Of a DNA stretch of 64,000 bases, positions 25,601 through 50,654 are shown piece by piece. The notes under the pieces are model-generated. The model made no database searches. It worked only from the letters and a program-made list of their open reading frames with translations, and was not told the origin of the DNA. Within the stretch, counting starts at the first letter, position 1, and every line of letters starts with the position of its first letter. The position numbers and the translations under genes are program-made. Origin of the DNA: Lysobacterales bacterium (lineage in GTDB: Bacteria; Pseudomonadota; Gammaproteobacteria; Xanthomonadales; Marinicellaceae); NCBI GenBank assembly GCA_026982315.1, contig JALSHI010000027.1, forward strand, positions 1 to 64,000, given 5' to 3'.

Positions 25601-25684
25601 ACCAGCCCAGGAAAGAGTCGGCTTGCAGGGTGCGGCGAAGGCATGTGGCCGCCTGATGCACGCTCCTTTGCATAATGCGCGACA

Positions 25685-26098: not shown

Positions 26099-26261
26099 TA
26101 TATCGGCGGTACGGCATGGCCAAGGGTGTTGCTGGTTATGGAAACCCGGAAAATCAGCTTGTCTTCCATTTCAATGGCAGGGGCTTTCCTGTCTCTGTTT
26201 GCAGGTCTTGGCACAAGTTTGATAGCAGTGGCACAAAAGCTGCTGCCGGAAAGGTTGTCGA

Positions 26262-26900
26262 TCAGCTTTTTCCCAGACGGATCTTGACCCGCTGGCGCAA
26301 GGGTGAATTTTTGGGAAAGTGGTTCAGCAAAAACTCCATTTGGTCAGCGATGATATGCCGGCCCTGAAGATAAATGTATTCCGCGTAATTGGGCACAAAG
26401 GGAATGGCCAGCAATTTCATGTTGGCTTCTTCCGGGGTGCGGTCGGCCTTGTGGTTGTTGCACCGCTTGCAGGCGGTGACCACGTTTTTCCAGTGGTCGC
26501 GCCCACCCTGGGACAAAGGACGAACATGATCGCGTGACAGTTGTTGTTTGGGATATTGTTTGCCACAGTAAAGGCACAGATTTTCGTCGCGCCGGAACAA
26601 GGTATTATTGCTGAGCGGCGGGATAAACCGTCCCTTGTCATATTCGCGGTTGCGGCCACGGGTGACCAGAATAGCGTTGATATCGAGAGTGCTTTGTTGC
26701 TGGCTGAAGGCGTTAATGCCGCCATGAAGCCGGGTGACAATACGGCCAAAGGCGTATTGAACCATATCCAGGGAAATCAGCCGGGCGGCTTCTTGATGGC
26801 CAATCCATTCCAGCGGTATGCCGGTGGAGTCAGTACGGAGAATTTGTGGTATCAGTTCAGGCACATTACTCACGTCTTCGGGTTTGTGCAAACATAACAC
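26262..26900 (-). CDS. HNH endonuclease family protein
   Basis: The 212-residue protein has an HNH domain from about residue 105 to 165: CLYCGK, the catalytic RDHVRPLSQGG, a conserved Asn in HWKNVVTAC, and a second zinc pair CKRCN followed by KADRTPEEA. This is the McrA/CRISPR-type HNH layout with two CxxC knuckles. Similar stand-alone HNH proteins are common in gammaproteobacteria, and their role is uncertain. ATG 26900 is the longest start; GTG 26873 (about residue 10) is equally possible because conserved family sequence begins around ELIPQILRTD. The gene is bracketed on both sides by palindromic repeat clusters. No methyltransferase partner is adjacent. Confidence 0.85.
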   Translation of the reverse strand: MLCLHKPEDVSNVPELIPQILRTDSTGIPLEWIGHQEAARLISLDMVQYAFGRIVTRLHGGINAFSQQQSTLDINAILVTRGRNREYDKGRFIPPLSNNTLFRRDENLCLYCGKQYPKQQLSRDHVRPLSQGGRDHWKNVVTACKRCNNHKADRTPEEANMKLLAIPFVPNYAEYIYLQGRHIIADQMEFLLNHFPKNSPLRQRVKIRLGKS

Positions 26901-27018
26901 GATTTAACAGAAATGCAAAGGTGCAAAAGGGCGCGTGAGGAGCATTTATCCAAAGATGGCGGCTGGGTGGTGATTATCCATCCGGAGGGCATGACAGGAT
27001 TAGAAGAGCTCCCACCTT

Positions 27019-27180
27019 TGTCATTCCGGGCGAGCGGAGCGAGACCCGGAATCCAGAAGCTTCGGGAGTGGGTGTGGCATGGATTCCCGCTTTCGCGGGA
27101 ATGACGGAGGTAAGCCGTCATTCCGGGCGGTCTTCCTTTCTCCGTCATTCCGGGCGAGCAGAGCGAGACCCGGAATCCAT
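27019..27180. repeat. Palindromic repeat cluster 3
   Basis: CATTCCGGG...CCCGGAAT units are at 27019-27055 and 27143-27180, an ATTCCCGC-N-GCGGGAAT unit is at 27080-27105, and a truncated unit lies around 27115-27130. The cluster lies in the 370-base gap between the HNH gene and the S9 peptidase terminator. It matches the units at 33-210 and 25685-26098. No gene is seen in this gap. Confidence 0.85.
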
Positions 27181-30957: not shown

Positions 30958-33900
30958 ATGAAACCACGACAGAAACGTTTAAGCCTGTTGATTTCTGCCG
31001 TATTGGGAACGGCCCTGGCCGGCTGGCCACTGGCCTCCATGGCGCAAAAGCAGGAAGACAGTACTGAAAACTCGGTCAATCTGGACAAGGTGCAGGTCAC
31101 CGGATCGCGCATCAAGCAGGCCGGCATTGAAGGCATTCAGCCACTGCAGGTACTGGATCGTGAAGACATTGAGCGCACAGGATTGACCTCGGTGGGCGAT
31201 ATTCTGCAGCAACTGACCTTGTCCGGTTCGGCTATCAATACCCGCTTTAACAGCTCTGGCAATTTTGGTTTTCCTCCCAATGGTGGTGGCATCGGCGCTG
31301 GCGCTACACGGGTGGATATGCGCCATTTGGGTTCCGGCCGCGTGCTGGTGCTGGTGGACGGCTTGCGCTGGGTTCCCGGCAGTTCGGGCAGTGGCGTTAG
31401 CAATGCGGTAGACATGAATACAATACCCGTGGGGATTATTGAGCGGATTGAAATCCTGAAAGACGGAGCTTCTGCCATTTATGGTGCTGATGCCATTGCC
31501 GGTGTCATTAACATCATCACTAAGAAGGACTTTACCGGTGGTGAGGGCATGGTCTATGGCGGCATGTTCGATGCGGGAGATGGCGAGACCGGGCAGGTGG
31601 ATCTGACGTTTGGCCAGTCCAGCGACCGCATGAACGTGGTTTTGAATATCGGTTACACCAATCAGGAGCCTGTGAGTGCGGCGGATCGAAAATTATCCGC
31701 TTTTCCCAAGCCTTACACCGGTGTTACTCGGGGTTCCTCGGGAACGCCCCAAGGCCGTTTTTTGTTTAATACGCCTGGTGGTACAACGGTCAACTGCACC
31801 ATCAATAATGGGGTGACAGGCATTCCGTCTTTTGACCCGAATAATCCGTGTTCCGGTGATGACTTTCATCCGTTCACGAATGATGATCGCTTCAATTATG
31901 CCAGCTACAACCTGTATGTGACTCCGTCGGAGCGCATGAACATTTATGGAGCGGTCACCATGCAACTGACAGACAAGCTGAGCTGGCATACCAAAGTCCT
32001 GTATAACAATCGCCAGTCCACCAATCAGGCAGCGCCTGAGCCGATTTTTATCGGGCCGTTTGCCGAGGCCGGGCAAATTGCCGACAACATTATCGTTTCC
32101 GCCAATAATCCCTACAATCCCTTTGGACAGGATTTATTCACAGACGGGTTTGGTTTTATCGGTCGGCGGCCATTGGAGGCTGGCCCACGGGTTTTTAATC
32201 AGGATGTGGATACCATTTATGCGGCCAGCCAGCTCCAGGGCGCATTTGATGGCATGAATCACACCTGGTACTGGGAACTGGCTGGCGCCTATGGTCGTAA
32301 CCGGGCGGACCAGTTAAAAGATGGCGCTTTGAATATCCGCCATATCGCTGATGCCTTAGGCGACCCGGATGCCTGTGCAGCCTTGCCCGGCTGTGTTCCC
32401 TTGAATCTGTTTGGCGGTCAGGGTGACGGCAGTGGCACCATCACCCAGGAAATGCTGGACTATATTTCTTTTGTCCAGCATGACACCAGTCAGCAAGAGT
32501 TGACCACGTTCAATGCCAATATCAGCAGCGACTTGTTTGAATTGCCCGCCGGCCCGCTGGGGTTTGCCGCCGGCTATGAATACCGCAAGCACCGGGGCTT
32601 TTTCCAGCCCGATGCGGTGGTGGTGGCCGGAGAGTCCAATGGTGTTCCGGCCAGCCCCACCAAGGGCGAATATGATGTCAATGCTTTTTACGCGGAAGCC
32701 GTGCTCCCCATCCTGGCCGATCAGCCCGGTGCCGATTTGCTGGATGTGTCTCTGGCGGTTCGCTCTGAGGATTACAGCACTTCAGGCTCGGCCACCACCG
32801 GCAAATTTGGTGTTCGTTACATGCCGAATGAAGAGCTGCTGATCCGAGCCACTTATGCCGAGGGTCTGAGAGCGCCCAGTATTGGCGAATTGTTTGGGAA
32901 TCAGGCCCGTTTTGATGCGGTGCTGGATGACCCTTGCAATTCCATTGATACCGATAATGACGGTGTGCCGGATACCACGCCGGATTTGCCGGGATGTGCC
33001 GGAGTTCCTGACGGCTATCAACAAACCAACCCGCAAATTCCGCTGGTGACAGGGGGCAACCCCAACTTGCAGCCGGAGGAGTCCACCAGCTATACCGCCG
33101 GTGTGGTATATAGCCCCAACTGGGCGGAAAACCTGAGCTGGGCGCCCCGGCTGGATTTTGAATGGACTTACTATGACATTTCTCTGGAAAAAGCCATTCA
33201 GGCGGTGGATGCCGCCACCATTCTGGAAACCTGTGCAGTGAATCCGGCAGAGGCGGTGTGTGACTCATTTTCTCGTGACGCCTTTGGCAATATTGAGCGC
33301 TTTGAAAATACGCTCACCAATATTGGCGGAATCGATACTTCTGGCTGGGATCTGAATGTGCACTGGACTTCGCCTGACACCGACTGGGGACAATTCGCCG
33401 TCTCCTGGTATAACTCGGTGGTCAAAGACTATGTGGAAATCAATCCGTCTTCATCCAGCCCCACAGGCTTTGTCGAGCGGCATCTGGAAGGGCTGGAACA
33501 AAGTGATTCCGCTATTCCGCGCTGGAAATCCAATTTGGTCACGACCTGGGGCATTAACCAGTGGAAAGTGACCTGGAGCATGCGATTTGTCAGTCGGGTG
33601 ACGGAGAAATGTAGTGACTTCCTGGATGGCACACCTAACAGCTTGACGCAGCTGGGTTTGTGTTCTGATCCCAATTTTGACGACGAGTCAAAAAGCCTGA
33701 ACTCGCTGGGGGGAACCACTTATCATGACTTGCAGGTGAGTTTGCCGAACTGGCACAAGCTGGAAATTCAACTTGGTGTTAATAACATCTTTGACCGCGA
33801 TCCGCCGGCTTGCTTCAGTTGCTCGCTCAATGGCTATGATCCTTCCACTTATGACCCTGAAGGCCGTTTTCTCTATGGCCGGGTTAAATTCCGTTTTTGA
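30958..33900 (+). CDS. TonB-dependent outer-membrane receptor
   Basis: The 980-residue protein has a signal peptide ending near ASMAQ. A plug domain spans about 40-190 (VQVTGSRIKQ, DREDIERTG, RVLVLVDG, ERIEILKDGASAIYGADAIAGVINIITK). A long 22-strand barrel follows and ends in aromatic FRF. No STN signalling domain is present. Extracellular loops contain cysteine pairs and a calcium-loop-like DTDNDGVPDTTPD at 32947-32985. The family imports large nutrients, and this Asn/Gly-rich type is often linked to peptides or glycans in Xanthomonadales and Alteromonadales. The ligand is unknown. GGGAG precedes the ATG, and a terminator follows. Confidence 0.93.
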   Translation: MKPRQKRLSLLISAVLGTALAGWPLASMAQKQEDSTENSVNLDKVQVTGSRIKQAGIEGIQPLQVLDREDIERTGLTSVGDILQQLTLSGSAINTRFNSSGNFGFPPNGGGIGAGATRVDMRHLGSGRVLVLVDGLRWVPGSSGSGVSNAVDMNTIPVGIIERIEILKDGASAIYGADAIAGVINIITKKDFTGGEGMVYGGMFDAGDGETGQVDLTFGQSSDRMNVVLNIGYTNQEPVSAADRKLSAFPKPYTGVTRGSSGTPQGRFLFNTPGGTTVNCTINNGVTGIPSFDPNNPCSGDDFHPFTNDDRFNYASYNLYVTPSERMNIYGAVTMQLTDKLSWHTKVLYNNRQSTNQAAPEPIFIGPFAEAGQIADNIIVSANNPYNPFGQDLFTDGFGFIGRRPLEAGPRVFNQDVDTIYAASQLQGAFDGMNHTWYWELAGAYGRNRADQLKDGALNIRHIADALGDPDACAALPGCVPLNLFGGQGDGSGTITQEMLDYISFVQHDTSQQELTTFNANISSDLFELPAGPLGFAAGYEYRKHRGFFQPDAVVVAGESNGVPASPTKGEYDVNAFYAEAVLPILADQPGADLLDVSLAVRSEDYSTSGSATTGKFGVRYMPNEELLIRATYAEGLRAPSIGELFGNQARFDAVLDDPCNSIDTDNDGVPDTTPDLPGCAGVPDGYQQTNPQIPLVTGGNPNLQPEESTSYTAGVVYSPNWAENLSWAPRLDFEWTYYDISLEKAIQAVDAATILETCAVNPAEAVCDSFSRDAFGNIERFENTLTNIGGIDTSGWDLNVHWTSPDTDWGQFAVSWYNSVVKDYVEINPSSSSPTGFVERHLEGLEQSDSAIPRWKSNLVTTWGINQWKVTWSMRFVSRVTEKCSDFLDGTPNSLTQLGLCSDPNFDDESKSLNSLGGTTYHDLQVSLPNWHKLEIQLGVNNIFDRDPPACFSCSLNGYDPSTYDPEGRFLYGRVKFRF

Positions 33901-34628: not shown

Positions 34629-35771
34629 ATGACAACACACCGAATTCGATCGGCCTTTTACTTCCTGATTTTTCTCATGGCGGTATGGCTGCCAGCGGCC
34701 CAGGCGGAGCTGGCATTGAATTTATCTGAGGGCGTGACAGAATTCAGCCGCGATGTTTATCAGTTACACATGATCGTGTTATGGATTTGTGTCGCCATTG
34801 GGGTGGTGGTTTTTGGCGCCATGATTTATTCCATTGCCAAACATCGCAAGTCCAAGGGCAACAAACCGGCTCAGTTCAGTCACAGCACCAAGGCCGAGGT
34901 TATCTGGACGATAATCCCCATTATCATTTTGATCGTGATGGCGTTTCCCGCGACCCGGGTGCTGATCAAAATGGAAGATCCCAAAGACATGGACATGACC
35001 ATCAAGATTACCGGCTATCAATGGAAATGGCGGTATGATTACCTGGATGAAGGCTTTGGATTTTTGAGCACACTGGATCGCAAAAGCAATCTGGCCCGTC
35101 AGCCGGATAGCGGCATTGACCCAGAAACAGTGCCCAATTATTTGCTGGATGTGGATAACCCGCTGGTTGTGCCGGTGAACACCAAAATTCGTTTTCTATT
35201 GACAGCCGACGATGTGATCCATTCCTGGTGGGTGCCAGCATTGGGCTGGAAGCGGGATGCCATCCCCGGTTTTATCAATCAGGCCTGGACGGAAATTCTG
35301 AAGCCGGGGGTTTATCGTGGCCAGTGCGCGGAGTTATGTGGTAAAGACCACGGATTCATGCCAGTGGTGGTCAAGGCGGTGAGCAAGGAAGAATACCGGC
35401 AATGGGTCGCCCAGATGAAAGGTGAGCAGGTTCAGCAGGCAAAAATGGACCAGAAGACCTGGTCAAAAGCGGACTTGATGGCCAAGGGCCAGGAAATTTT
35501 TGAAACCCAGTGCGCCAGTTGCCACCAGAAAAATGGTCAGGGCATGCCGCCGGCTTTTCCGTCGCTGGTGGATAGTGCCACGGTTAAAGGCTCGCTTGAG
35601 GGTTTGATCCATACGGTTAAGTTTGGTCGACCGGGAACGGCCATGAGCGCTTTTGGTAACATTTTGACAGACAGTGATCTGGCGGCTGTTGTGACTTATG
35701 TGCGCAACGCATTCGGGCAGCGGGATGATACCGTTCAGCCACAAGATGTTGCCGCAGTGACACAATCATAA
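34629..35771 (+). CDS. coxB: Cytochrome c oxidase subunit II with fused cytochrome c domain
   Basis: Subunit II accepts electrons from cytochrome c at its CuA centre. The 380-residue protein has a signal peptide, two transmembrane helices (about 35-115), and the periplasmic cupredoxin domain. The CuA ligands are in IHSWWVPALG and GQCAELCGKDHGFM. A C-terminal cytochrome c domain has the heme motif CASCH near residue 300 and the likely Met axial ligand in GTAMSAFG. The fused heme domain identifies a caa3-type oxidase. GGGTAA precedes the ATG at close range. Confidence 0.96.
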   Translation: MTTHRIRSAFYFLIFLMAVWLPAAQAELALNLSEGVTEFSRDVYQLHMIVLWICVAIGVVVFGAMIYSIAKHRKSKGNKPAQFSHSTKAEVIWTIIPIIILIVMAFPATRVLIKMEDPKDMDMTIKITGYQWKWRYDYLDEGFGFLSTLDRKSNLARQPDSGIDPETVPNYLLDVDNPLVVPVNTKIRFLLTADDVIHSWWVPALGWKRDAIPGFINQAWTEILKPGVYRGQCAELCGKDHGFMPVVVKAVSKEEYRQWVAQMKGEQVQQAKMDQKTWSKADLMAKGQEIFETQCASCHQKNGQGMPPAFPSLVDSATVKGSLEGLIHTVKFGRPGTAMSAFGNILTDSDLAAVVTYVRNAFGQRDDTVQPQDVAAVTQS

Positions 35772-35825
35772 AACCATTCGCTCGGAATGTATTTGACGTA
35801 TTGATAAAGGAACGGGAGCATAACC

Positions 35826-37436
35826 ATGAGCCATGCAACAACACATGAACACGACCACCACGACGAAAAACCCAAGGGTTTCGTCAAGCGCTGGTTGTTG
35901 ACAACCAACCATAAAGATATTGGCACGCTGTACCTGATATTTGCCCTGATTATGTTTTTTATCGGGGGCGCCATGGCGCTGATCATCCGTCTGGAGCTAT
36001 TTCAGCCCGGCTTGCAATTTGTGCAACCGGATTTTTTTAATCAGCTGACAACGGTTCATGCCCTGGCCATGATTTTTGGTGCGGTGATGCCGGCTTTTGT
36101 GGGCCTGGCCAACTGGATGATTCCCATGATGATTGGCGCTCCGGATATGGCTTTGCCGCGTATGAACAACTGGAGCTTCTGGATTATGCCATTTGCCTTT
36201 GCGATTCTGCTATCCACCTTCTTTATGGATGGTGGTGCGCCGGCGGCGGGGTGGACCATGTATCCACCGCTGGTTTTGCAAGGCGGCAAAAATGTGGCTT
36301 TCATGGTGTTCGCCATCCATTTGATGGGTATTTCCTCCATTATGGGGGCCATCAATATTATTGCCACGGTTTTGAATATGCGCGCGCCGGGCATGGATTT
36401 TCTGAAAATGCCACTGTTCGTCTGGACCTGGCTGATTACCGCCTTTTTGCTGATTGCTGTCATGCCTGTTTTGGCAGGTGCGGTCACCATGATTCTGACC
36501 GATCATTATTTTGGCACCAGCTTCTTTAACGCCGCCGGTGGTGGTGACCCGGTGCTGTATCAGCATATCTTCTGGTTTTTTGGCCACCCCGAGGTTTATA
36601 TCCTGATTTTGCCGGCCTTTGGCGTGATTTCGGAAATTATTCCCGCTTTTGCCCGTAAGCCTTTGTTTGGCTATACGGCCATGGTGTATGCCACCGCTTC
36701 CATTGCGTTTCTTTCCTTTATTGTGTGGGCGCACCACATGTTTACAGTCGGCATGCCCCTGGGTGGTGAGTTGTTCTTTATGTATGCCACCATGCTGATT
36801 GCCATTCCTACCGGCGTCAAAATCTTTAACTGGGTATCCACTATGTGGCAAGGCGCCATGACTTTTGAAGCGCCCATGCTGTGGGCGATTGCTTTTGTGG
36901 TGCTGTTTACCATTGGTGGTTTTTCCGGAATCATGCTGGCCATTGCTCCGGCAGACTTCCAGTACCACGACACCTACTTTGTGGTCGCGCATTTCCACTA
37001 TGTGCTGGTCACCGGTGCGGTATTCGCCATTATTGCGGCGGTTTACTACTGGCTGCCTAAGTGGACAGGCCACATGTACGATGAAAAGCTGGCCAAATGG
37101 CACTTCTGGTTGTCAGTCATTTCTGTCAATGTGTTGTTTTTTCCGCAGCATTTTCTCGGTTTGGCAGGGATGCCCCGGCGAATCCCGGATTACGCCACCC
37201 AGTTTGTTGAGTTCAATATGATTTCCAGTATTGGCGCTTTTGTGTTTGGCTTCTCACAACTGCTGTTTGTCTACCTGGTGTGGAAAACCGCCAAAGGCGG
37301 CGAAAAAGCCAGCAGCCGTGTATGGAAAGGCGCCAAGGGGCTGGAATGGACTGTGCCATCTCCGGCGCCGCATCACACTTTCCAGGACAACGCACCGGTT
37401 AATGATGCCGACTTGGCTCATGGCAGTGCTCACTAG
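35826..37436 (+). CDS. coxA: Cytochrome c oxidase subunit I
   Basis: Subunit I holds low-spin heme, the heme-CuB oxygen-reduction site and proton channels. The 536-residue protein has 12 hydrophobic helices. Recognisable motifs are the first heme histidine in [12 protein letters not shown], the HPEVY stretch of the His-Tyr crosslink region, and WAHHMFTVG with the CuB histidines. Further in come the K-channel/PTG region [11 protein letters not shown] and HYDTY-like [17 protein letters not shown] with heme ligands. It is 54 bases after coxB. A D-channel Asp-like region lies near the start. Confidence 0.97.
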
Positions 37437-37451
37437 AGGGTGACCAAAACG

Positions 37452-37565
37452 GTGGATAAAAAGCAGTACAAGGCAGTCCGGCGCACCGCCGCTGGACTGT
37501 TCTTGCTGGCCTTTTTGGTGTTTGCCGGCTTTATTGCGGCTAATGTTGTGGCCAGCTATCGCTAA
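37452..37565 (+). CDS. Small single-helix protein between coxA and ctaG
   Basis: A 37-codon frame from GTG 37452 encodes a basic N terminus (DKKQYKAVRRTAAG) and one hydrophobic helix (LFLLAFLVFAGFIAANVVA). AGAGGG at 37435-37440 lies about 11 bases upstream. An in-frame GTG at 37440 would give 41 residues but lies directly against that site. Small single-helix proteins occur at this position in many proteobacterial cox operons and may help copper delivery or assembly. It is too short for ordinary gene callers. I cannot assign a function. Confidence 0.65.
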   Translation: MDKKQYKAVRRTAAGLFLLAFLVFAGFIAANVVASYR

Positions 37566-37579
37566 ATGCAGGTGTGGTG

Positions 37580-38167
37580 ATGAGTCAGCGTCATGTCGAT
37601 AAAAAAGCCCGAAAGACAATAGGCGTCACCCTGGGTGTGACGGTTTTGATGTTTGGCTTTGCCTTTGCGCTGGTGCCGCTGTATAACGTCTTTTGTGAAA
37701 TCACCGGTATTAACGGGAAAACAGGGCGGGTGTCTGCCAGTGAAGTCAATCAACGAGACTTTGACCCCAACCGGACTGTGGTGGTGCAATTTGATGGCAC
37801 GGTCAACAGTGCGCTACCGTGGCAGTTTCATCCTCGTCAAGTGTCCATGGAAGTGGTGCCTGGTAAACTTTACACCACAGAGTTTTTTGCCAAGAACCTG
37901 GCTGATCGGCCAGTCGTTGGGCAGGCAGTGCCCAGTGTGGCGCCAGGGGAGGCTTCTCTCTACTTTAACAAAACTGAATGTTTTTGTTTTACGGAGCAAA
38001 CGCTGCAACCACATGAAGAAGTGTGGATGCCGGTCACGTTTCGAGTGAGCCCGGATTTGCCGGAAGACGTCCATGTCATGACCTTGTCCTATACCTTTTT
38101 TAATAAAGGTGGGCTGACTCCGGCGCAAGAAAAGGCCGGACAAGGTAGCCATGCAACAGGCAGATAG
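37580..38167 (+). CDS. ctaG: Cytochrome c oxidase assembly protein CtaG/Cox11
   Basis: CtaG is a membrane-anchored copper chaperone that inserts CuB into subunit I. The 195-residue protein has one N-terminal helix (TLGVTVLMFGFAFALVPLYNVFCEITG) and a periplasmic domain with the copper motif KTECFCFTEQTL, where the two cysteines bind Cu(I). VPLYNVFC carries the third conserved cysteine. ATG 37580 was chosen, since an in-frame GTG lies two codons upstream. It starts 14 bases after the small ORF. Confidence 0.94.
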   Translation: MSQRHVDKKARKTIGVTLGVTVLMFGFAFALVPLYNVFCEITGINGKTGRVSASEVNQRDFDPNRTVVVQFDGTVNSALPWQFHPRQVSMEVVPGKLYTTEFFAKNLADRPVVGQAVPSVAPGEASLYFNKTECFCFTEQTLQPHEEVWMPVTFRVSPDLPEDVHVMTLSYTFFNKGGLTPAQEKAGQGSHATGR

Positions 38168-38279
38168 TTAAACAATGCACTGATGTGCAGGCGATCAGCG
38201 ATTCGCGATGTTGTAAACATAAGAGCTTAAGGGGTCCGGTGAATCTCACCGGAAAACACAACAATAACGAGGCAATACA

Positions 38280-39146
38280 ATGTCCCAAGCAACTGAAAGT
38301 ACATATTATGTCCCGCATTTGGCCAAGTGGCCCATTGTGGGGAGTGTGGGTTTGACCTTGGCGGCCGTGGGTGGCGCCCTTTACCTTAATGGTGATACCG
38401 GTCCATGGCTGCTGTATGCCGGACTGGCTGTTATTGTTTATATGATGTTTGGCTGGTTTGGGGAAGTCATCGCCGAAAGTGAAGGCGGCATGTATAACCA
38501 GCGGGTGGACACTTCTTTCCGCATGGGGATGATCTGGTTTATTTTTTCCGAGGTGATGTTTTTTGCCGTATTTTTCGGCGCCCTGTTTTATGCCCGTATG
38601 TTTTCTGTTCCCTGGCTGGGAGGTGAAGGCACCGGCTATGCCACCGGCGCCTTGCTGTGGCAGGGTTACGAAGGTGTCTGGCCCACAAATGGCCCGGCCA
38701 ATCTGGGTGGAGAATTTGAAACCATCCCGGCTTTTGGTTTGCCCTTGATCAACACCTTGATCCTGTTGACATCGGGTTTGACCGTGACTTTGGCGCACCA
38801 TGCCTTGAAAAAAAGTAACCGGCGGGCGCTGGTTGGCTGGTTACTGGCCACGGTGGTATTGGGCTTTACTTTTGTTTATCTGCAAGCCACGGAATATATT
38901 GAGGCGTACCATGAGTTGAATCTGACCCTGGGCAGTGGCATTTATGGCTCCACTTTCTTCATGTTGACCGGGTTTCATGGTCTACACGTGACTTTGGGCG
39001 CTATTATGTTGCTGGTCATCGCCATTCGCGCCATGCGTGGGCACTTTACACCGGAACATCACTTTGCTTTTGAGGCGGTGGCCTGGTATTGGCATTTTGT
39101 GGACGTGGTATGGTTGGCGTTGTTTATCTTTGTCTACATTCTGTAA
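38280..39146 (+). CDS. coxC: Cytochrome c oxidase subunit III
   Basis: Subunit III stabilises the oxidase and protects it from turnover damage. The 288-residue protein has about seven hydrophobic helices. Family stretches include MIWFIFSEVMFFAVFFGALFY, LTSGLTVTLAHHAL, FMLTGFHGLHVTLGA and the C-terminal HFVDVVWLALFIFVYIL. A 112-base gap separates it from ctaG, and a terminator follows 17 bases after its stop. Confidence 0.96.
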   Translation: MSQATESTYYVPHLAKWPIVGSVGLTLAAVGGALYLNGDTGPWLLYAGLAVIVYMMFGWFGEVIAESEGGMYNQRVDTSFRMGMIWFIFSEVMFFAVFFGALFYARMFSVPWLGGEGTGYATGALLWQGYEGVWPTNGPANLGGEFETIPAFGLPLINTLILLTSGLTVTLAHHALKKSNRRALVGWLLATVVLGFTFVYLQATEYIEAYHELNLTLGSGIYGSTFFMLTGFHGLHVTLGAIMLLVIAIRAMRGHFTPEHHFAFEAVAWYWHFVDVVWLALFIFVYIL

Positions 39147-39162
39147 GAACCCCGCCTTGCAT

Positions 39163-39190
39163 AAAGCGCCCCGTTTTCGGGGCGTTTTTT
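39163..39190 (+). terminator. Terminator after coxC
   Basis: CGCCCCG pairs with CGGGGCG around TTTT and is followed by six T. It separates the coxB-coxC operon from the oxygenase genes. Confidence 0.92.
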
Positions 39191-39257
39191 ATGCCTGATG
39201 AATAAATGTCTGTGGCTGGAGTAAAATAGGGGTCAATGTGATCGCCATTAAGAATAC

Positions 39258-40418
39258 ATGAATGACCGTATGCCGGAAGCAGGTTACCGCCAGGCATTGT
39301 CTTTGCTGCGGCAAGGACAATGGGATGCAGCCCGGGAGACCCTTCTGCACGTTGCTGGAACCGGGTTCACGCCTGCCATCAAGGAGCTTGGCATACTGGA
39401 ACTGCATGGAATTGGCTGCCAGGCCGATGTCGGTAGCGCTGTTAGTCGCTTTCAACAATCACTGGACGAACCGGAGTCCCAGTTTGAATTAAGCCGCTGC
39501 CTGTATTTTGGTTATGGCCTTGGCCGTGATCAGAGCGCGGCTTTGCACTGGCTAAAACAGGCCGCCAAACAGGGGTTTGCCGAGGCTTTGCGGGTCATGG
39601 CCATGTTGGCTGAATATGTGGACAAGGAAAAAGCGCACACCTCTGCTGCGGACAATCATGCCCAGCGACTCATGTGGAAAGCGGCACAGGCCGGTGACAA
39701 TTTTGCGCGCTATCTGTATAAAAGTGGCTTGGTATCAGCCATTAAGATCAGTCCTGAAGACATGGACACCTTCATTGACGCGATGATATGGCCGCGACAC
39801 ACGGTGCGAACCGGTATGCCATTGCACCAGCAGCCGGGGGTGACCTTGTTTGATGGCGCACTAAGCCGCTGGCAATGTGAATATATTCGTTTCCGCGGCG
39901 CACCGCATTTGCGGCCCTCCATGGTGCTGGATCCAGCCACGGGAAAACGCATCCAGGACCCGGTGCGAAAAAGTGATTCTGCCGGATTTGACTGGTTTCT
40001 TGAAGACATTGTGGTGCGCCAGATTATGCAGGCAGCGACGGCTTTGGTGGGTATTGATGTGGCACGCAGTGAACCGTTGCACCTGCTTCGTTACGGTGTT
40101 GGCCAGGAATACAAACCCCATTATGATTTTGTTGGCGGCCTTGAATATACCGGACGGTTTGCGGATCAACAACGAACAGATACGTTATGCCTGTATCTGA
40201 ACGATGTTCCTGCAGGTGGAGAAACCGCTTTCCCCCGCCTGAACCTGTCAATCCCGCCCAAAGCCGGACAAATGCTTCACTTTCAGAATGTCGATGCAAT
40301 GGGACGGCCTTTTGTTGACTCGCTGCATTGCGGCAAACCGGTCCATCGTGGAGAAAAATGGTTGGCAACTTTGTGGATACGAAAAACCAATACGGGTAGA
40401 GGTTTGACGAATGAATGA
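39258..40418 (+). CDS. Sel1/TPR-like repeat protein with 2-oxoglutarate/Fe(II) prolyl-4-hydroxylase domain
   Basis: The 386-residue protein has helical Sel1/TPR-like repeats to about residue 165 (QFELSRCLYFGYGLGRDQSAALHWLKQAA) and a P4Hc-type oxygenase domain at about 195-380. The iron ligands His288, Asp290 (KPHYDF) and His357 (LHCGKPV) are present, with Lys367 in GEKWLATLWIR for 2-oxoglutarate. It should therefore be catalytically competent for hydroxylation of a protein side chain, possibly proline. The substrate is unknown. It has no signal peptide. It overlaps the next oxygenase by eight bases. Insertion of such genes inside the cox cluster is unusual. Confidence 0.87.
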   Translation: MNDRMPEAGYRQALSLLRQGQWDAARETLLHVAGTGFTPAIKELGILELHGIGCQADVGSAVSRFQQSLDEPESQFELSRCLYFGYGLGRDQSAALHWLKQAAKQGFAEALRVMAMLAEYVDKEKAHTSAADNHAQRLMWKAAQAGDNFARYLYKSGLVSAIKISPEDMDTFIDAMIWPRHTVRTGMPLHQQPGVTLFDGALSRWQCEYIRFRGAPHLRPSMVLDPATGKRIQDPVRKSDSAGFDWFLEDIVVRQIMQAATALVGIDVARSEPLHLLRYGVGQEYKPHYDFVGGLEYTGRFADQQRTDTLCLYLNDVPAGGETAFPRLNLSIPPKAGQMLHFQNVDAMGRPFVDSLHCGKPVHRGEKWLATLWIRKTNTGRGLTNE

Positions 40419-40983
40419 TACAGAAAAACGGTTAACACCCACGCGTAGCGCCCAGGTAGATGGCCGGCCAGTGTATGTGTTTGATGATCTGGTGGATAAA
40501 AAAGTGATTGACGAAATCTACCACGCTCTGACCAAGGCGCCGTTCACACGGACGGAAATGGCGCGCCCGGAAACCGCCGCCCACCGCCATTGGGCCTATA
40601 ACATGCCGCTGGATAAAGCGTGTTTGCTGCCCATTGCCCGGATGGCGCAAAAGGCCATAGACAGCTTGTTTGAGGAACGCTACCGCATGTACCGTTGCTA
40701 TTGCAACGTGGCCAGTTTCGGCGACATGCTGTTCACGCACACAGACTGCCAGCCCAATGCCCGGGAAATGACAGCCTTGTGGTTTGTACAGAAAGACTGG
40801 AACCACGAATGGGGTGGGGAAACACTGTTCTATAACCAGAACAAGGACGCCGAGTTCGTGGTTTCACCCAAACCGGGGCGGTTAGCGATTTTTGATGGCG
40901 CGATTTTGCATGCAGGCCGCCCGCCCAACAAAATCTGCACTGAGCCGCGTTACACATTCGCCATGAAATTTGAAAAGTACTAA
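40411..40983 (+). CDS. Second 2-oxoglutarate/Fe(II)-dependent oxygenase
   Basis: The 190-residue protein is a single small double-stranded beta-helix oxygenase. Ligands are His110 and Asp112 (FTHTDCQ), His167 (ILHAGRPP) and the 2-oxoglutarate arginine Arg180 (EPRYTFAMKF). The WGGETLFYNQ strand between them is typical. It has no leader or membrane segment. The start overlaps the upstream P4H-like gene, so both are translated together. Two different oxygenases may act in sequence on one substrate, or one may act on a partner protein. The family is close to prolyl-hydroxylase-like proteins, and the substrate cannot be predicted. Confidence 0.85.
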   Translation: MNDTEKRLTPTRSAQVDGRPVYVFDDLVDKKVIDEIYHALTKAPFTRTEMARPETAAHRHWAYNMPLDKACLLPIARMAQKAIDSLFEERYRMYRCYCNVASFGDMLFTHTDCQPNAREMTALWFVQKDWNHEWGGETLFYNQNKDAEFVVSPKPGRLAIFDGAILHAGRPPNKICTEPRYTFAMKFEKY

Positions 40984-41236: not shown

Positions 41237-41347
41237 GTGGGCAATCCAGAAAAACGGGTGGCTATTGTATCGTGCCCAACCGGATGGGGGCACTGCCGGA
41301 AGCATAAAAAATCTGAATGAGTTTTTTCGGGGCAGGCAGGCTTGCCC

Positions 41348-42097
41348 ATGAGTGCTGGAGAAAAACCACTCAAGACTGGCGCTGGTGTCACCTCCATCCC
41401 TGGCTGGCCACTGGCTTTGGTGCTGTTTTTTACCGGGGTCATGGTGTGGCTGGGTTTTTGGCAGTTGCAGCGCGCCGAAGAAAAACGCCAGTTGCTGGCT
41501 TTGCTGGCCAGCGGTCAGAACATGACGGTGGCCAGTGCTGAGGGATTGCAGTCCGTGCCCCGCTATGCCTATGTGCAGGTGACCGGCCGGTTTTTGGATA
41601 GTCCACAGTTTGTGCTGGAAAATAAGGTGCGCCACAAGCGTTTGGGCTATGCCATTTTTACCCCGCTGGTGATTCCGCAATGGCGTGCCACGATCATGGT
41701 AAATCGCGGCTGGATAGATGCGCGGGAATTTGACATGGCGGCATTGCAGCCGGATACTCGCTTACGGTCCTGGCGCTTGCGAATTGACAAACCACCCAAA
41801 ACCGGTGTTGAGCTGGGAGAGGTTCAGCTGGAACCAGAGGCGCCGGTGCAGAAAATGGTTTATTACACACCGGAGAAAATTTCCGCGGTTATCAGGTATC
41901 AGCGCCCAGATGCGCCTCCAGTGCTGGAAGAGCGGGTATTCTTGCTTGAAGCAGACCAGCCTGCGGGTTTTGATCGGCAGTGGAAACCTGTTATCATTCC
42001 GCCTTCGCGCCATATTGGCTACGCAGTTCAATGGTTTGGGCTGACACTGACATTATGGATTCTGTTCATCTTTTGGCTAAGAAAACAACGTGACTGA
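41348..42097 (+). CDS. SURF1 family oxidase assembly protein
   Basis: SURF1 helps place heme a in subunit I. The 249-residue protein has the typical two-helix topology: LALVLFFTGVMVWLGFWQL near residue 25 and IGYAVQWFGLTLTLWILFIF at the C terminus, with a periplasmic domain between them. Family motifs GFWQLQRAEEK and VNRGWIDA are clear. ATG 41348 was used; an upstream TTG adds two residues. It is the first gene of the second cox half and overlaps the next gene by eight bases. Confidence 0.92.
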   Translation: MSAGEKPLKTGAGVTSIPGWPLALVLFFTGVMVWLGFWQLQRAEEKRQLLALLASGQNMTVASAEGLQSVPRYAYVQVTGRFLDSPQFVLENKVRHKRLGYAIFTPLVIPQWRATIMVNRGWIDAREFDMAALQPDTRLRSWRLRIDKPPKTGVELGEVQLEPEAPVQKMVYYTPEKISAVIRYQRPDAPPVLEERVFLLEADQPAGFDRQWKPVIIPPSRHIGYAVQWFGLTLTLWILFIFWLRKQRD

Positions 42098-42674
42098 CTC
42101 TCGCCGAAACAAACTGATTCTGTTGGCCTTGTTCGCCCTGTTTTTTATACCTGTGTTAGTGGCCTATCTGATGAATGCGGGTGTGATTCATTATCGGGCG
42201 ACGCCTTCCAAAAATCACGGTGATCTGGTAACCCCGCCGGTGGAAATGCGCCGCTATACCCGTCACGCGGCGCTGGCGCAAGCCGATGACCGCTGGAAAC
42301 TGGTGTATGTGACAGCGAAACAGGACTGTGATGAGGATTGTCAAAAGATGCTGGATGCGATTTATCGCATCTATCTGGCCAGCGGACGTCATCAGCCCAA
42401 GGTTCAGCCAGTGGTGGTCGGGCTTTCCGGCGCTGTTGAACTGACTGCACAGCTGGCGCCTGTTTTTCAGTCGGTTTCTTTACAGGGGGAACCCTCGGCG
42501 CGTGAACTGTTTTTCAAGTTAAGCCAGCAATCCATGGGCGGAAAAGCGGGCACTGGCGAAGGGTTTTACATTATCGCCCCGGAGGGTTTTTTAATGATGT
42601 CTTATCCGCAAGGGTTTAATCCTTCAGGCACAATCAAAGACATGAATATCTTGCTCAGACGTAAGGACGGGTAG
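42090..42674 (+). CDS. Membrane-anchored CxxxC protein of the cox cluster
   Basis: The 194-residue protein starts at GTG 42090. It has one N-terminal helix (LILLALFALFFIPVLVAYL) and a thioredoxin-like periplasmic domain (LVYVTAKQDCDEDC). Cys80 and Cys84 form a CxxxC pair, as in Sco copper chaperones. The Sco proline after CxxxC and the distal histidine are not evident, so it is not a standard SenC/Sco1. Its place between SURF1 and ctaA suggests oxidase or heme a assembly. A copper-delivery or redox role is inference. Confidence 0.72.
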   Translation: MTDSRRNKLILLALFALFFIPVLVAYLMNAGVIHYRATPSKNHGDLVTPPVEMRRYTRHAALAQADDRWKLVYVTAKQDCDEDCQKMLDAIYRIYLASGRHQPKVQPVVVGLSGAVELTAQLAPVFQSVSLQGEPSARELFFKLSQQSMGGKAGTGEGFYIIAPEGFLMMSYPQGFNPSGTIKDMNILLRRKDG

Positions 42675-42678
42675 TGCT

Positions 42679-43689
42679 ATGAAATATCACCAGGTGGCCT
42701 GGCTGGCCGTTTGTTTGGCGCTTGGGGTGGTTGTCCTGGGGGCTTTTGTGCGTCTGTCTGATGCGGGTTTGGGTTGTCCGGACTGGCCCGGCTGCTATGG
42801 TCATATGGATTGGCCCGTCCATGAAACCGAAATACAGCAAGCCAATGCCCGTTTCCCCGATCGGCCGGTGGAACCGCACAAGGCCTGGCGCGAGATGGTT
42901 CACCGCTATTTTGCCGGTACGCTGGGCTTGCTGGTGTTGGCGCTGTTTGTCTGGGCGTGGCGCCGCCGTAACACGGACATCAGTGGACAGGATTCGCCAG
43001 TGGGGTTGGCGTCTTTCTTGCTGCTGGTCATTATTGCCCAGGCTGCTTTGGGCATGTGGACGGTGACGCTAAAGCTAAAACCGGTGATTGTCATGCTGCA
43101 CCTGCTTGGCGGCCTGACCACACTGGCGCTATTGCTCTGGCTGGCCTTACGTACCACGCCGGGTTTACAGCCTTACCGGTATGCCGGGCATATTCGGCCT
43201 TGGATGGTGGGTTTGGGCTTGGCGTTGCTGGTGGGACAAATTGCTTTGGGAGGTTGGACCAGTGCCAATTATGCTGCCTTGGCGTGTCCTGATTTCCCCA
43301 CCTGCCAGGGTAGCTGGTGGCCGAAGATGGATTTTTCCGAGGCCTTTATCTTGTGGCGTGGCATCGGCCCCAATTATGAGTTTGGCGTGTTGGACATGCC
43401 TGCGCGCACAGCCATTCACCTGATGCATCGTATCGGTTTTCTGCTACTCAGCCTGTATCTGATTTGGCTGGCCACCCGTTTGATGAAAAATCGTGAGTTA
43501 TTGCCCTGGGGACTGGGGTTGCTGGGGCTGTTGATTTTGCAAATCGGCTTGGGAATTTCCAATGTGCTGTTTTCCTTGCCCTTGCCGGTAGCCACTTTGC
43601 ATAACATGGGGGCGGCCCTGCTGCTCTTGTTTATGGTGGCTTTGTTGTATAAAACCCGTTCTTCCCGGCGTAACGGGGGCAGTGGATAG
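42679..43689 (+). CDS. ctaA: Heme A synthase (COX15/CtaA)
   Basis: CtaA oxidises the methyl group of heme O to make heme A. The 336-residue protein has eight hydrophobic helices. Hallmarks are [18 protein letters not shown] near residue 30, the [10 protein letters not shown] histidine, [23 protein letters not shown] and the late [10 protein letters not shown] histidine. These conserved histidines are heme ligands. It is followed two bases later by cyoE. Confidence 0.95.
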
Positions 43690-43691
43690 TC

Positions 43692-44669
43692 ATGATGGGG
43701 AAAAGCAGCGAACAGGCAGTCGTAGCTCGTGAGGAAAACAGCGGGGTTGTGCGCTGTTTTAACTCGTATCTGGAACTGTGCAAACCACGCGTGGTGTTGC
43801 TGATTGTATTCACCGCTTTGGTGGGCATGCTGCTTGCGGTGCCCGGCTTGCCGCCGGTGGACAAACTGGTTTACGGCTTGCTGGGCATTGGTCTGGCAGC
43901 CGCTGCGGCAGCGGCCATTAACCACTGGGCAGACCAAAAGGCAGATGCCATTATGCTGCGTACCCGTCACCGTCCCTTGCCCAGCGGGGAGTTAAAAGAT
44001 TATCAGGTCCTGCTGTTTGCTTTGGTGATGACGGTGATTGCGATGGCGACACTGGTCTGGAAGGTAAATACCTTGACCGCCATTCTGACTTTTGCCTCAT
44101 TGATTGGTTATGCCTTCATTTACACCTTTTTTCTCAAACGCATCACGCCACAGAATATTGTCATTGGCGGTGCAGCCGGGGCCGCTCCGCCGGTTTTGGG
44201 GTGGGCCGCGGTGACCGGGCAGGTCACACCCGAATCCTTACTGCTGTTCCTGATTATTTTCGCCTGGACACCACCGCACTTCTGGGCGCTGGCGATTCAC
44301 CGCAAGGAGGATTACGCCAAAGCCGGAATCCCCATGCTGCCGGTCACCCATGGCGTCAAGGTAACCCAGCTGCATATTCTGCTGTATACCATCATCCTGT
44401 TTCTGGTGAGCCTGCTGCCATATCTGATTGGTCTAAGCGGCCTGATTTATCTGGCTGGCGCCGTGATTCTGGGCCTGTGGTTTCTGGCTTATGCTGTGCG
44501 CTTGCCGCGTTCCCAAGACCCGATGTTGCCATGGAAAATGTTCAAGTTTTCCATCTGGTACTTGATGCTGCTGTTTGCTGTGCTGTTGATCGATCACTAT
44601 GCGCCGGGTCATCATCTCAACCCCAGGGTGCCGCAGACGCCGATTTTGAGTGGGGCTGATGGCATATAG
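43692..44669 (+). CDS. cyoE: Protoheme IX farnesyltransferase (heme O synthase)
   Basis: The enzyme adds the farnesyl tail to heme B, forming heme O for CtaA. The 325-residue protein is of the UbiA prenyltransferase family with about nine helices. It shows the first Asp motif [12 protein letters not shown] followed by [10 protein letters not shown] and a later [18 protein letters not shown] second ATG lies immediately after the first (43692 and 43695). The gene could also be called ctaB because of its cox context. Confidence 0.95.
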
Positions 44670-46553: not shown

Positions 46554-49500
46554 ATGAAAGAAAAATGGGTGTTTTCTGCCTTCTGGTGCGTTGCGGCCCT
46601 TCTGCTGTCGAGTATGGCCATCGGCGGCGGGCACCTGTTGCCCGTCAAAGCCTATGGTAATGCGTCTCCAACCTCTTTTGGCGGCTATACCGTCTCTGCC
46701 GCCGGGCTTAACCAATACTATGTTATTGGCATAGAAGTCCCACCAGGGGCCAGCCAGTTAGTGATTGACATTTTCGATGCGGACCTGGGCGCAGGGGGCG
46801 CGGCGGACATCAGTGGCGACCGAGATAATCAAAGCGGCGGGGCATGGGACTCCTATTATCTCTACATACTATACGACGAACAGCTGAATTTGGTGCCGGT
46901 TGCGAACTACAATTATTTTTATGGTAGCGCCACCTTACCGGCTGGCAGTGATAATGCCTGGACCACTTTTTACAGCACCGCCAACCCGGCGCCGGGTCAC
47001 TGGGTCATGGTGGTTTATCCTTATCCTTCCACCGCTGCCGGCGGCGGTGGTGCCTCGGATGACCTGAATGCGTTCGGGGTGCGCGCCCACGATGGCGACC
47101 CAGGCCCCGGGGGGGTCGAATTCAACACCTATATGATCTCCCCCATTCCCATTGGCACCAATGGCATTCCCGGTCCCACCCAAAGCTCAGCGCGGTATCA
47201 GGTATACCCCTATGTGACTTCGGGTTGCCAGCTGAATACCCATGATTTTGACTCTGATGTGCCTAATCTGCCAGCCGGAACACCGCCGCTGGAAACGCAA
47301 ATACAGCTTGCCAACCGGACTGGCGCTTATTCCCATACCGTGACCCAGGCGACCATGAGCGGCCAGGACACATGGGTCAATAATACCATTGGCCCGGTGG
47401 CCGGAGTCGAACCATCAGGCACCGATTATTTCCGTGATGGCATGGGAATCTGGAACGCCTTGCTGGTTGTGAATGAACAAGGCACTGGTGGCGCCACAGC
47501 CGGGGCCAATTACAATGAAGTGATTATCGCCAATTTCAATAACCCCACGCCAGTGCCAACCAATGCCATTGAAGCAGATACTTTTCGCTGGTACTTGCCC
47601 ACCGATGCCGGTGGCGCGCCGGTAAAAACCTATATGACCCAGCGGGTTAACTTCTGGAGCGGGCCCAATCCACCTGTGGTGGGGCAGGCCACGGAAGTGG
47701 AAGTGGAAATCACCGTTTACAATCCCACGGCAAGTCCTGTCACATTTTCAGCGGCAAACAATGATCTGGTTCGAAGTGCCATACCCGCGGTGCCGGAACT
47801 GGCGTTTGTGGCAGGTTCTGTCAATGTGACCCAGGGCACAGCACCAGGTGTGGCTGGTTTGGCGATTCCACCTGCCGGTGGCACCGGTTCCCTGGAATGG
47901 GATCCGGGGATTATTGCACCGGGTTCCAGCGCGCAGCTTTCCTACCGCATGACGGTCACCCCATCTGCCGCCGGCCAGCGTATTGTGGTGACCGGCACGC
48001 CTGCCAGTGTGGGCACCACAGCCGACTATGTGGATCATACCGGTAATCCCAATTCGCCATTTGCCAATGTGACATTTGGTCCCTTGTGCGAATTGGCTGT
48101 CACCGAGGCCCAACCGGTTCCCACACCGGTTTATCTCAGTTATGTGCGGCTTGAAGGCCAGCCCGGTAACTATCATTTGCGGTGGCACACCGCCTTTGAG
48201 GCTGGCAATGTGGCCTTTCGTGTCTTTGATGCGCGCGAGGATTCGCCTGAGCACCGTTTGGCGGAGGTGCCGGTGACCAAAGCCGGCCACCTGGGCGAGG
48301 CCAGTTATTCAGTGGATTTGCCAGTGGCGCATTTGCAATCCGTCTGGATACAGGATGTGGCCCTGGATGGAAGCACAAGCTGGCATGGGCCGTTTCACCT
48401 GAATCAGACTTTTGGCGTAGCGGGTGTTGAACGCGTGCGGCGTGCGTCCCGGAGTAACCCGGAGATTATCGATGATTTTGCCCGCCGGGCGCAGTGGCAA
48501 CGCCAGCAAAGGGTTCCCGAGCTGGACCTGATGACAAATGACGCCGGAGTTTACCGGGTGAGCTTCGATGCCTTGTCCGCACAGGGCTATGATTTTATCG
48601 GGCTTTCCTCCGATGAAGTGCGCTTGCTGCAAGATGGTCACGGGATTCCGGTGATTTACAATCCGGAACACACGGGCATTATTCAGCCGGGAGACTATTT
48701 CGAGTTTATCGCCAGTGAGCGAAAAACCTTGTATGGCACGCGCAATGCCTACCGGTTAACGGCCGGCCGGCCGCTGAAGGGCCAGGATTGGGAGAGTGTG
48801 CCGGTGTCAGCCATGCCGACAGGGTCTGGAGATTTTGCCGCCTGGCGGCGAATGGATTTTGAGCAACAAGCGGCTTACTCCTTTTCCTCGCCGGATGCCG
48901 ACAACGACCCCTGGTACTGGCAATCCTATCTGGTTCGCAATACGCCCTTGGCCGCTTCCGTGCCTTTTTCTATGGACAGTGTGGATGCCGGTCAGGCGTA
49001 CACGCTGCATGTGGGATTGTGGACCATGACAGACTGGCCTGGCGTGGTTAACGATCATCATGTCAAATTGGCGGTTAACGGGGTGCCCGTGGGGGACTTT
49101 TTAGCTGCCGGACAGGGGCAGCAAAACCTGTTGGCGCATATTCCCCCAGGCGTGCTGCAATCCGGCGAAAATACTTTGGAACTGACCTTTCCGGCGGACA
49201 CGGGTGTGGCTTACGAGCTGAACTATCTGGATGACTTTGGTATCAGCGGATTTTTCCGGGCCAGCGGCCGTGCAAACGCCCAACTGCATTATCCGCGCAA
49301 TACCCGCCATGACAGCCAGCCCCTGGTCAATGATGTAATTCTGCGACATTCTTTCGATAACGCCCAGCACCATGTGTGCCAGATTGGCCCGTGTGCGACT
49401 TTGACTGTGGATGCGAACACGCCGGTTTGGGCTTATCAACGCAGTGGAGACCAGCTATGGCGGATACAGGCGGTGGCCGAAGGCGCTGCGCAAACGCTCA

Positions 49501-50654
49501 CAGTGGTTCCGCAAAGTCTGGTGGACACTTGGGTTGTCTTTGGCGACACGCGCTTATCGCCTGATATTCAGCCGGCGGCTACCGGAAATGTGCAATTGTC
49601 GGCCAATACCGACCTGTTGGTGATAGCACCGGCGGCCTGGGTGCCCACCTTACAACCCTGGATCAGCGCCCGGGAAAAACAGGGTCATGTGGTCAGCGTG
49701 GTTGCCGCCGAGGATGTTTACCATCACTTCAGTCATGGATTGATGGATGGACAGGCGCTGGCGGATTTTATTGCTCAGGCCAGTCAAGTGCAGCCGTCAC
49801 TGGCGAATGTGCTGCTGGTGGGTGCAGGCAGCTATGACTATCTTGATTATCTTGGCAGCGGCCAAACGGCGGTTCTGCCGGGCCTGTATGCCCCCACAGG
49901 CCCTTATGTGCGGTATGCGCCGGTGGATGCCGCCATGGGTGATGTGGATGCCGACGGTGTGCCGGATATCGCCATTGGTCGCTGGCCAGCGCAAGATATC
50001 ACCGAACTACAAACATTGGTGAACAAAACCCTGGCTTTTGAGCAGAAAATGTCCCAAAAGCCAGCCGCGGAGGCTGTTATGTTGTTGGATGCGGATGATG
50101 GTTCCGTGCGTTTTTCTGATCTGCTGGCGCAGCAATCACCATCGGTTTTCCCCAGCATGTGGAATGAAACCATTGTGGATGGCAACCAACCCGGGGCGAA
50201 GCAGCTGTTTTTGCAGCAATTGACAAGTAATCCTTTTCTGATTGAGTATCTGGGGCACTCCAGCCCCACACAATGGTCGGCCAGTGCCCTGTTGACCAGT
50301 TCCGATGCCCTGGCATTGGGTAACGACGGCCTGGCCATGTGGTTCCAGTGGGGTTGCTGGAATAACTATGCCGTGTCGCCGACGTTTGTGTCTTTGTCCG
50401 AGGCATTGCTTGCGTCCGATCATCGGGGCGCGGTCTTGACCCTGGGCGCCACGGCCATTGCCGATGCCAGCGTCGAGCTGGCGTTGCGGCGTCACTTTTT
50501 GCCCTTGTTAATGAAGGGACGCACGGTGGGCGAGGCATTGGTGGAAGCCAAGGCCGCCGTATTGCGGGAATCCGGCAAAGACGCGCAACACTTGCAAGAT
50601 GTGCTGGCGGGCATTACCATCCTTGGAGACCCGAGCCTGCGTCTGGTGTATTAA
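46554..50654 (+). CDS. Large exported protein with C-terminal gingipain-type (C25) peptidase domain
   Basis: The 1,366-residue protein begins with a signal peptide (FSAFWCVAALLLSSMAIGGG). Its N-terminal half has beta-rich modules, including a DUF11-like stretch at about 365-490. The C-terminal ~350 residues match the caspase-like C25 fold: LVGAGSYDYLDYL, DVDADGVPDIAIGRWP, His1235 in EYLGHSSP and Cys1268 in QWGCWNNY. The His-Cys spacing of 33 residues equals that of gingipain R. The usual HGS is HSS. No C-terminal type IX sorting domain is present, and the chain ends at LRLVY, directly after the peptidase domain. Substrate and secretion route are unknown. Confidence 0.82.
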   Translation: MKEKWVFSAFWCVAALLLSSMAIGGGHLLPVKAYGNASPTSFGGYTVSAAGLNQYYVIGIEVPPGASQLVIDIFDADLGAGGAADISGDRDNQSGGAWDSYYLYILYDEQLNLVPVANYNYFYGSATLPAGSDNAWTTFYSTANPAPGHWVMVVYPYPSTAAGGGGASDDLNAFGVRAHDGDPGPGGVEFNTYMISPIPIGTNGIPGPTQSSARYQVYPYVTSGCQLNTHDFDSDVPNLPAGTPPLETQIQLANRTGAYSHTVTQATMSGQDTWVNNTIGPVAGVEPSGTDYFRDGMGIWNALLVVNEQGTGGATAGANYNEVIIANFNNPTPVPTNAIEADTFRWYLPTDAGGAPVKTYMTQRVNFWSGPNPPVVGQATEVEVEITVYNPTASPVTFSAANNDLVRSAIPAVPELAFVAGSVNVTQGTAPGVAGLAIPPAGGTGSLEWDPGIIAPGSSAQLSYRMTVTPSAAGQRIVVTGTPASVGTTADYVDHTGNPNSPFANVTFGPLCELAVTEAQPVPTPVYLSYVRLEGQPGNYHLRWHTAFEAGNVAFRVFDAREDSPEHRLAEVPVTKAGHLGEASYSVDLPVAHLQSVWIQDVALDGSTSWHGPFHLNQTFGVAGVERVRRASRSNPEIIDDFARRAQWQRQQRVPELDLMTNDAGVYRVSFDALSAQGYDFIGLSSDEVRLLQDGHGIPVIYNPEHTGIIQPGDYFEFIASERKTLYGTRNAYRLTAGRPLKGQDWESVPVSAMPTGSGDFAAWRRMDFEQQAAYSFSSPDADNDPWYWQSYLVRNTPLAASVPFSMDSVDAGQAYTLHVGLWTMTDWPGVVNDHHVKLAVNGVPVGDFLAAGQGQQNLLAHIPPGVLQSGENTLELTFPADTGVAYELNYLDDFGISGFFRASGRANAQLHYPRNTRHDSQPLVNDVILRHSFDNAQHHVCQIGPCATLTVDANTPVWAYQRSGDQLWRIQAVAEGAAQTLTVVPQSLVDTWVVFGDTRLSPDIQPAATGNVQLSANTDLLVIAPAAWVPTLQPWISAREKQGHVVSVVAAEDVYHHFSHGLMDGQALADFIAQASQVQPSLANVLLVGAGSYDYLDYLGSGQTAVLPGLYAPTGPYVRYAPVDAAMGDVDADGVPDIAIGRWPAQDITELQTLVNKTLAFEQKMSQKPAAEAVMLLDADDGSVRFSDLLAQQSPSVFPSMWNETIVDGNQPGAKQLFLQQLTSNPFLIEYLGHSSPTQWSASALLTSSDALALGNDGLAMWFQWGCWNNYAVSPTFVSLSEALLASDHRGAVLTLGATAIADASVELALRRHFLPLLMKGRTVGEALVEAKAAVLRESGKDAQHLQDVLAGITILGDPSLRLVY

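Follow-up and report, generated by a model that had tools for sequence, protein, structure and literature searches.

An overlapping pair of 2-oxoglutarate oxygenase genes behind coxC is probably a displaced part of a TonB receptor-associated module

The gene pair and its place in the oxidase cluster

The window analysed here is a stretch of 64,000 nucleotides from the genome of a Lysobacterales bacterium (G000 in our set). It carries the cytochrome oxidase genes coxB-coxA-ctaG-coxC (34629–39146, + strand), which were recognised by the Pfam families COX2, CtaG_Cox11 and COX3, with coxA identified from its own sequence and from its 77–97% conservation in cox loci. Behind coxC lies an intrinsic terminator (~39159–39194, + strand), a hairpin of −23.5 kcal/mol (z −4.8) with a U tract. 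It is followed by ORF1 (39258–40418, + strand, 386 aa), which combines Sel1/TPR-like helical repeats with a P4H-type 2-oxoglutarate (2OG)-Fe(II) oxygenase domain, and by ORF2 (40411–40983, + strand, 190 aa), a small 2OG-Fe(II) oxygenase with a predicted PHD2/PPHD-like fold. The stop of ORF1 and the start of ORF2 overlap by 8 bp (ATGAATGA, 40411–40418, + strand). The right border of the inserted pair is a DUF2909 gene (PF11137; 41018–41236, − strand), behind which Pfam places the remaining oxidase assembly cluster, with SURF1, a 194-aa gene, COX15/CtaA and CtaB of the UbiA family (41342–44669, + strand). The initial annotation had described two oxygenase genes with an eight-base overlap that interrupt the cox cluster directly after the coxC terminator; the coordinates and the length of the overlap proved exact, and the hairpin was confirmed.

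The hairpin was found at the same place in all six pair-bearing genomes that were folded (the window's own, G002, G005, G007, G009 and G025). Between coxC and the pair, a scan for promoters gave no consensus site; the same pattern scan also missed the coxC terminator that was found by folding. As far as the sequence can tell, transcription of coxC should stop short of the pair, which is probably an independent transcription unit. The overlap of ORF1 and ORF2 is likewise 8 bp in the congener G002, and an overlap of 8 bp between a Sel1-P4H gene and a small oxygenase gene was also seen in G047, at a locus away from cox. Because it recurs in these two genomes, we do not regard it as a chance overlap of reading frames, and translational coupling of the two genes is probable.

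A TonB receptor gene (30958–33897) stands in the window between a nupC-like gene and DUF2244-coxB; other genera of the family have orthologues with 65–70% identity, located elsewhere. This receptor was considered as a local partner of the pair and was rejected: its closest relatives (65–70% identity) belong to pair-less genomes, and the congener G002 lacks a receptor at the corresponding position. Shortly behind the cox cluster, positions 46554–50654 encode a protein of 1366 aa whose C-terminal domain is a peptidase C25 domain of the gingipain type. Two 39-nt repeat families, of the types GTCATTCCGGGCGAGCGGAGCGAGACCCGGAATCCA and ATGGATTCCCGCTTTCGCGGGAATGACGG and with four copies each, are interleaved in an apparently gene-poor stretch at 25670–27180.

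Both genes encode catalytically complete oxygenases

Both proteins matched the Pfam family 2OG-FeII_Oxy_3 (PF13640) above its cut-off of 27 bits, ORF1 with 50.7 bits and ORF2, which is a bare domain, with 42.2 bits. ORF1 also contains a Sel1 repeat (PF08238); its Sel1/TPR-like helices span approximately residues 6–155 and its P4H-type domain residues 187–376. The iron- and 2OG-binding residues were located by alignment. In ORF1, these are H288, D290, H357 and K367, the first two being invariant among 27 homologues and the last two conserved in at least 90% of them, and in ORF2 they are H110, D112, H167 and R180, all invariant among 64 homologues. These full sets bear out the initial annotation, according to which both enzymes keep all of these residues.

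A phmmer search of the PDB with ORF1 found the P4H of B. anthracis (3.2e-26) and that of Chlamydomonas (2.6e-20), both matching the catalytic domain. The AF2 model of ORF1 (pLDDT 91.4) has an all-helical arm followed by a P4H-like domain, and Foldseek matched it to the algal and B. anthracis P4H. The solved folds nearest to the model of ORF2 (pLDDT 92.8) were those of HIF PHD2 (Z 17.5) and P. putida P4H (Z 17.3 for 4j25 and 17.2 for 4iw3), and the fold matches also included PolD, an enzyme that acts on a free amino acid. The search of the PDB with the ORF2 sequence at E 0.1 gave no match, PPHD included. ORF2 has a PHD-type fold with an arginine as the 2OG anchor, R180 being equated with the PHD2 arginine from sequence. 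Judged by their residues and by the double-stranded beta-helix fold of the models, ORF1 and ORF2 are members of the 2OG-Fe(II) oxygenase superfamily, and the catalytic domain of ORF1 is, by homology, a true prolyl 4-hydroxylase domain.

A comparison of the congeners G001 and G002 gave a dN/dS of ~0.14 (ORF1) and ~0.06 (ORF2); when the window is compared with G002, the synonymous sites are near saturation and pN is still low. The low dN/dS and the presence of the catalytic residues therefore indicate that both ORFs are functional, constrained genes under purifying selection. A defence role for the pair was also considered. Its sole hint, a generic CRISPR-associated 2OG profile matching both ORFs, was judged uninformative.

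Linkage to cox genes within the family

All 33 genomes of the family contain coxC. The small oxygenase is present in nine of them and absent from 24, and its carriers belong to two genera only, g1 (3/3) and g4 (6/11). Wherever the contig reaches, the pair lies right after coxC (G000, G002, G005, G007, G009, G013 and G025); the contigs of G001 and G023 begin close to the pair. Gene orientation was compared across 30 cox loci from the family. Nearly all loci of genus g3 have coxC, DUF2909 and SURF1 co-directional and no pair. The site is empty in G011, G015 and G021 of genus g4, where coxC faces an inverted DUF2909 with nothing recognised between them. With or without the oxygenase pair, genera g1 and g4 have DUF2909 in the opposite direction to that in g3. 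Since genomes of the family keep an intact oxidase without the pair, some of them with an empty site, the oxidase does not need it.

The cox-linked members group into one clade in the ORF2 tree (SH-aLRT 99), which fits a single relocation. The order of coxC and the pair has been kept despite the divergence of ORF1 to ~40% identity and the rearrangement of the downstream genes. As this order persists across two diverged genera, some benefit of the place is possible, and there is a small chance that the site after coxC matters functionally.

Homologues outside the family

When 84,980 species genomes were scanned with the ORF2 alignment, at least 73 loci were obtained. Among the matches listed, 52 gammaproteobacterial loci lie outside the family, in Lysobacter, Rhodanobacter, Alteromonas, Arsukibacterium, Kangiella and MAGs. 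Cox genes were found near the small oxygenase at none of these 52 listed loci. A TonB-dependent receptor was present at 33 of them, another 2OG oxygenase or TPR-sulfotransferase family at 40 and at least three module parts at 31; no module part was seen at 11, and some contigs are short. In a sample of the order comprising 299 genomes, 24 contain ORF2 homologues, and 15 of these lie outside the family. No linkage to coxC was found in these 15 whole genomes, coxC being ~700 kb off or on another contig. Co-location with cox genes that is conserved beyond close relatives, as would be expected of a component of the aa3 cluster, was thus not observed.

Eight Alteromonadaceae loci among the matches listed also carry a TonB/ExbB set. 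At these loci, the genes for the receptor, the Sel1-P4H, an AspH-type oxygenase and a TPR-Oxy_5 protein are co-directional and the small oxygenase is convergent; the gap between the receptor and Sel1-P4H genes was 45–92 bp in seven of the eight Alteromonadales loci measured. A Sel1-P4H/small-oxygenase pair, overlapping or adjacent, occurs away from cox genes in G041, G047, G056 and L081. The initial annotation knew of no such pair; the same overlapping pair does exist elsewhere, in multi-oxygenase clusters, but we found no paper describing it. Some distant homologues sit in unrelated places. Two distant ORF2-like oxygenases (L127 and L132) have contig neighbours that resemble T4-type phage genes.

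Module parts in the genome of the window

Parts of the same set were found on other contigs of the window's genome. On contig C20, a fragment of a TonB receptor is accompanied by a 2OG-FeII_Oxy_4 enzyme and by the beginning of a TPR protein; contig C18 has the final part of a TPR-Oxy_5 protein together with a TPR-sulfotransferase. Contigs C50 and C62 have one further Oxy_5 gene each. The sole match to PF05118 (AspH-type) lies on contig C25, away from the set on C18 and C20. The Oxy_5 (PF13759) gene of C50 (L193, 9709–10380) stands alone near two large 2-oxo acid dehydrogenase-like genes, and such a neighbourhood was also seen in G009 (L187) and G025 (L190).

At least two PF13759 oxygenases were present in 12 of the 15 genomes with the small oxygenase and in 3 of the 46 without it, with a Fisher p of 1e-7 that ignores phylogeny, the independent events being fewer. 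Within genus g4, PF13759 occurred in 6/6 pair-bearing and 2/5 pair-less genomes. The co-occurrence of PF05118 was not discriminating. When the TonB receptors of the module were compared with non-module receptors, of which there were only seven sequences, no target motif with Pro, Asp, Asn or Tyr stood out.

Discussion

We consider it probable, at about 0.6, that the pair encodes two cytosolic hydroxylases which are a displaced part of a modular, TonB receptor-associated hydroxylation/sulfation system. That the pair stands next to the oxidase probably reflects a relocation specific to this family and not a role in sensing oxygen for the oxidase. The module would consist of several 2OG oxygenases and TPR-sulfotransferases, sometimes with a TonB2 energy system, and the insertion of the pair behind the coxC terminator and in front of DUF2909 would date from the common ancestor of the two genera. 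The Sel1 repeats of ORF1 would hold the substrate protein while the P4H domain hydroxylates a proline; ORF2, started from the overlapping start codon, would hydroxylate the same or a partner protein through its PHD-like site. The overlap of start and stop codons would give a matched output of both enzymes. The likeliest substrate would be an exported protein of the module, either the TonB receptor or what the receptor handles, modified in the cytosol before export.

Protein hydroxylation appears to be the likeliest chemistry, given the true P4H domain of ORF1 and the PHD2/PPHD-like fold of ORF2. The homology of ORF1 and the fold of ORF2 also point to proline as the target, and we infer that the two enzymes may act jointly. 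From the gene order, the TonB receptor itself can be proposed as the target tentatively, with the odds clearly against it. Similarly doubtful, in our opinion, is the full picture in which Sel1-P4H, PHD-like, AspH-like and Oxy_5 hydroxylases together with a TPR-sulfotransferase modify a TonB receptor or an exported partner and make outer-membrane uptake depend on oxygen, iron and 2-oxoglutarate, with the genes for two of these enzymes transferred, in this lineage, to the tail of the cytochrome oxidase operon.

The TPR and Sel1 arms of these proteins bear on one alternative, namely that the enzymes act on no protein and instead tailor a small molecule, or a peptide of ribosomal origin, handled by a TonB receptor. 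Such arms usually bind proteins, and no recurrent precursor-peptide, NRPS or PKS gene was seen in the loci read by eye. The sulfotransferases of the module, the presence of PolD among the fold matches and the relations of ORF2 to FlmC (below the cut-off) and, by a weak match of a distant homologue, to YhhC are in favour of a non-protein substrate, which we nevertheless regard as quite unlikely. The elongation factor EF-Tu is a serious rival target, because PPHD and, according to the title of PDB entry 5v7y, the B. anthracis P4H related to ORF1 (3e-26) act on it; EF-Tu is the target of PPHD in Pseudomonas (PMC5701443, PMC4543633). By this analogy, ORF2 or ORF1 would be a prolyl hydroxylase of EF-Tu or another translation factor and the pair a general oxygen-dependent regulator of translation, and the model of ORF2 is indeed nearest to PHD2 and the P. 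putida P4H (Z ~17). However, ORF2 has no sequence match to PPHD or any other PDB chain, and its sporadic distribution (24/299 genomes of the order) and the module context suggest an accessory substrate, so that we hold a role in translation to be unlikely.

The initial annotation had taken the pair as a hint of oxygen sensing or of hydroxylation of a respiratory or ribosomal protein. Centred on the aa3 oxidase, this reading holds that the enzymes hydroxylate one of its subunits or assembly factors, or act as its oxygen sensor, and that the genes stay next to coxC for this reason. It gains from the position directly behind coxC in two genera, which has survived deep divergence and differing downstream genes, and from the fold that ORF2 shares with the oxygen-sensing PHD enzymes. 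But the link to cox is that of two genera of one family with one origin and a conserved terminator between coxC and the pair. The co-occurrence with aa3 clusters that the initial annotation had proposed to look for was absent at all 52 listed loci and in all 15 genomes outside the family, and the pair was found there scattered at unrelated loci, the pattern that the annotation itself had named as speaking against its idea. Moreover, 24 of the 33 family genomes have coxC and lack the small oxygenase, and three of them (G011, G015 and G021) have empty sites. Of that interpretation, the catalytic integrity of the two 2OG oxygenases is supported, with protein hydroxylation as the likeliest chemistry; what it draws from the cox neighbourhood is not supported, and a function of the pair for the oxidase, very unlikely in our judgement, is the weakest reading on the evidence.

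Each enzyme belongs to a known superfamily, and the relocation beside coxC is a quirk of the lineage. The recurring set, in which a receptor and a TonB system are joined by TPR-sulfotransferases and as many as four or five kinds of 2OG oxygenase, seems to be undescribed, as no description of a module with a TonB receptor, 2OG oxygenases and sulfotransferases was found in the open-access literature searched. The interest of the locus rests on this module and not on the oxidase. If outer-membrane proteins are indeed modified by it, nutrient uptake would be under an unusual form of post-translational control that depends on oxygen, which could be tested in culturable Alteromonas or Lysobacter. 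The window also teaches caution, as a neighbourhood within one family may mislead on function.

Comparison with known systems

Searches for FlmC in the literature returned unrelated uses only, and those for YhhC, a peptide oxygenase, and cyclophanes returned chemistry papers only. ORF2 aligns over nearly the whole NCBIfam model NF052475 (FlmC family 2OG-Fe(II) oxygenase; 1.1e-45), with a score below the curated cut-off of that family (155.9 vs 240 bits). With HIF PHD2/EGLN1 and Pseudomonas PPHD it shares the fold (Z ~17) and the HxD...H...R site, but the identity is 12–18%, there is no significant sequence match and the gene neighbourhood is another one. The catalytic domain of ORF1 is homologous to Chlamydomonas P4H-1 and B. 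anthracis P4H, with the same fold and the HxD...H...K site; unlike these enzymes, ORF1 has an N-terminal Sel1/TPR arm and sits in a gene pair. The TonB-receptor oxygenase/sulfotransferase clusters of Lysobacterales and Alteromonadales share the Sel1-P4H, small-oxygenase and partner families with the genome of the window, whose two genes, in contrast to those clusters, stand apart from the receptor set, after coxC.
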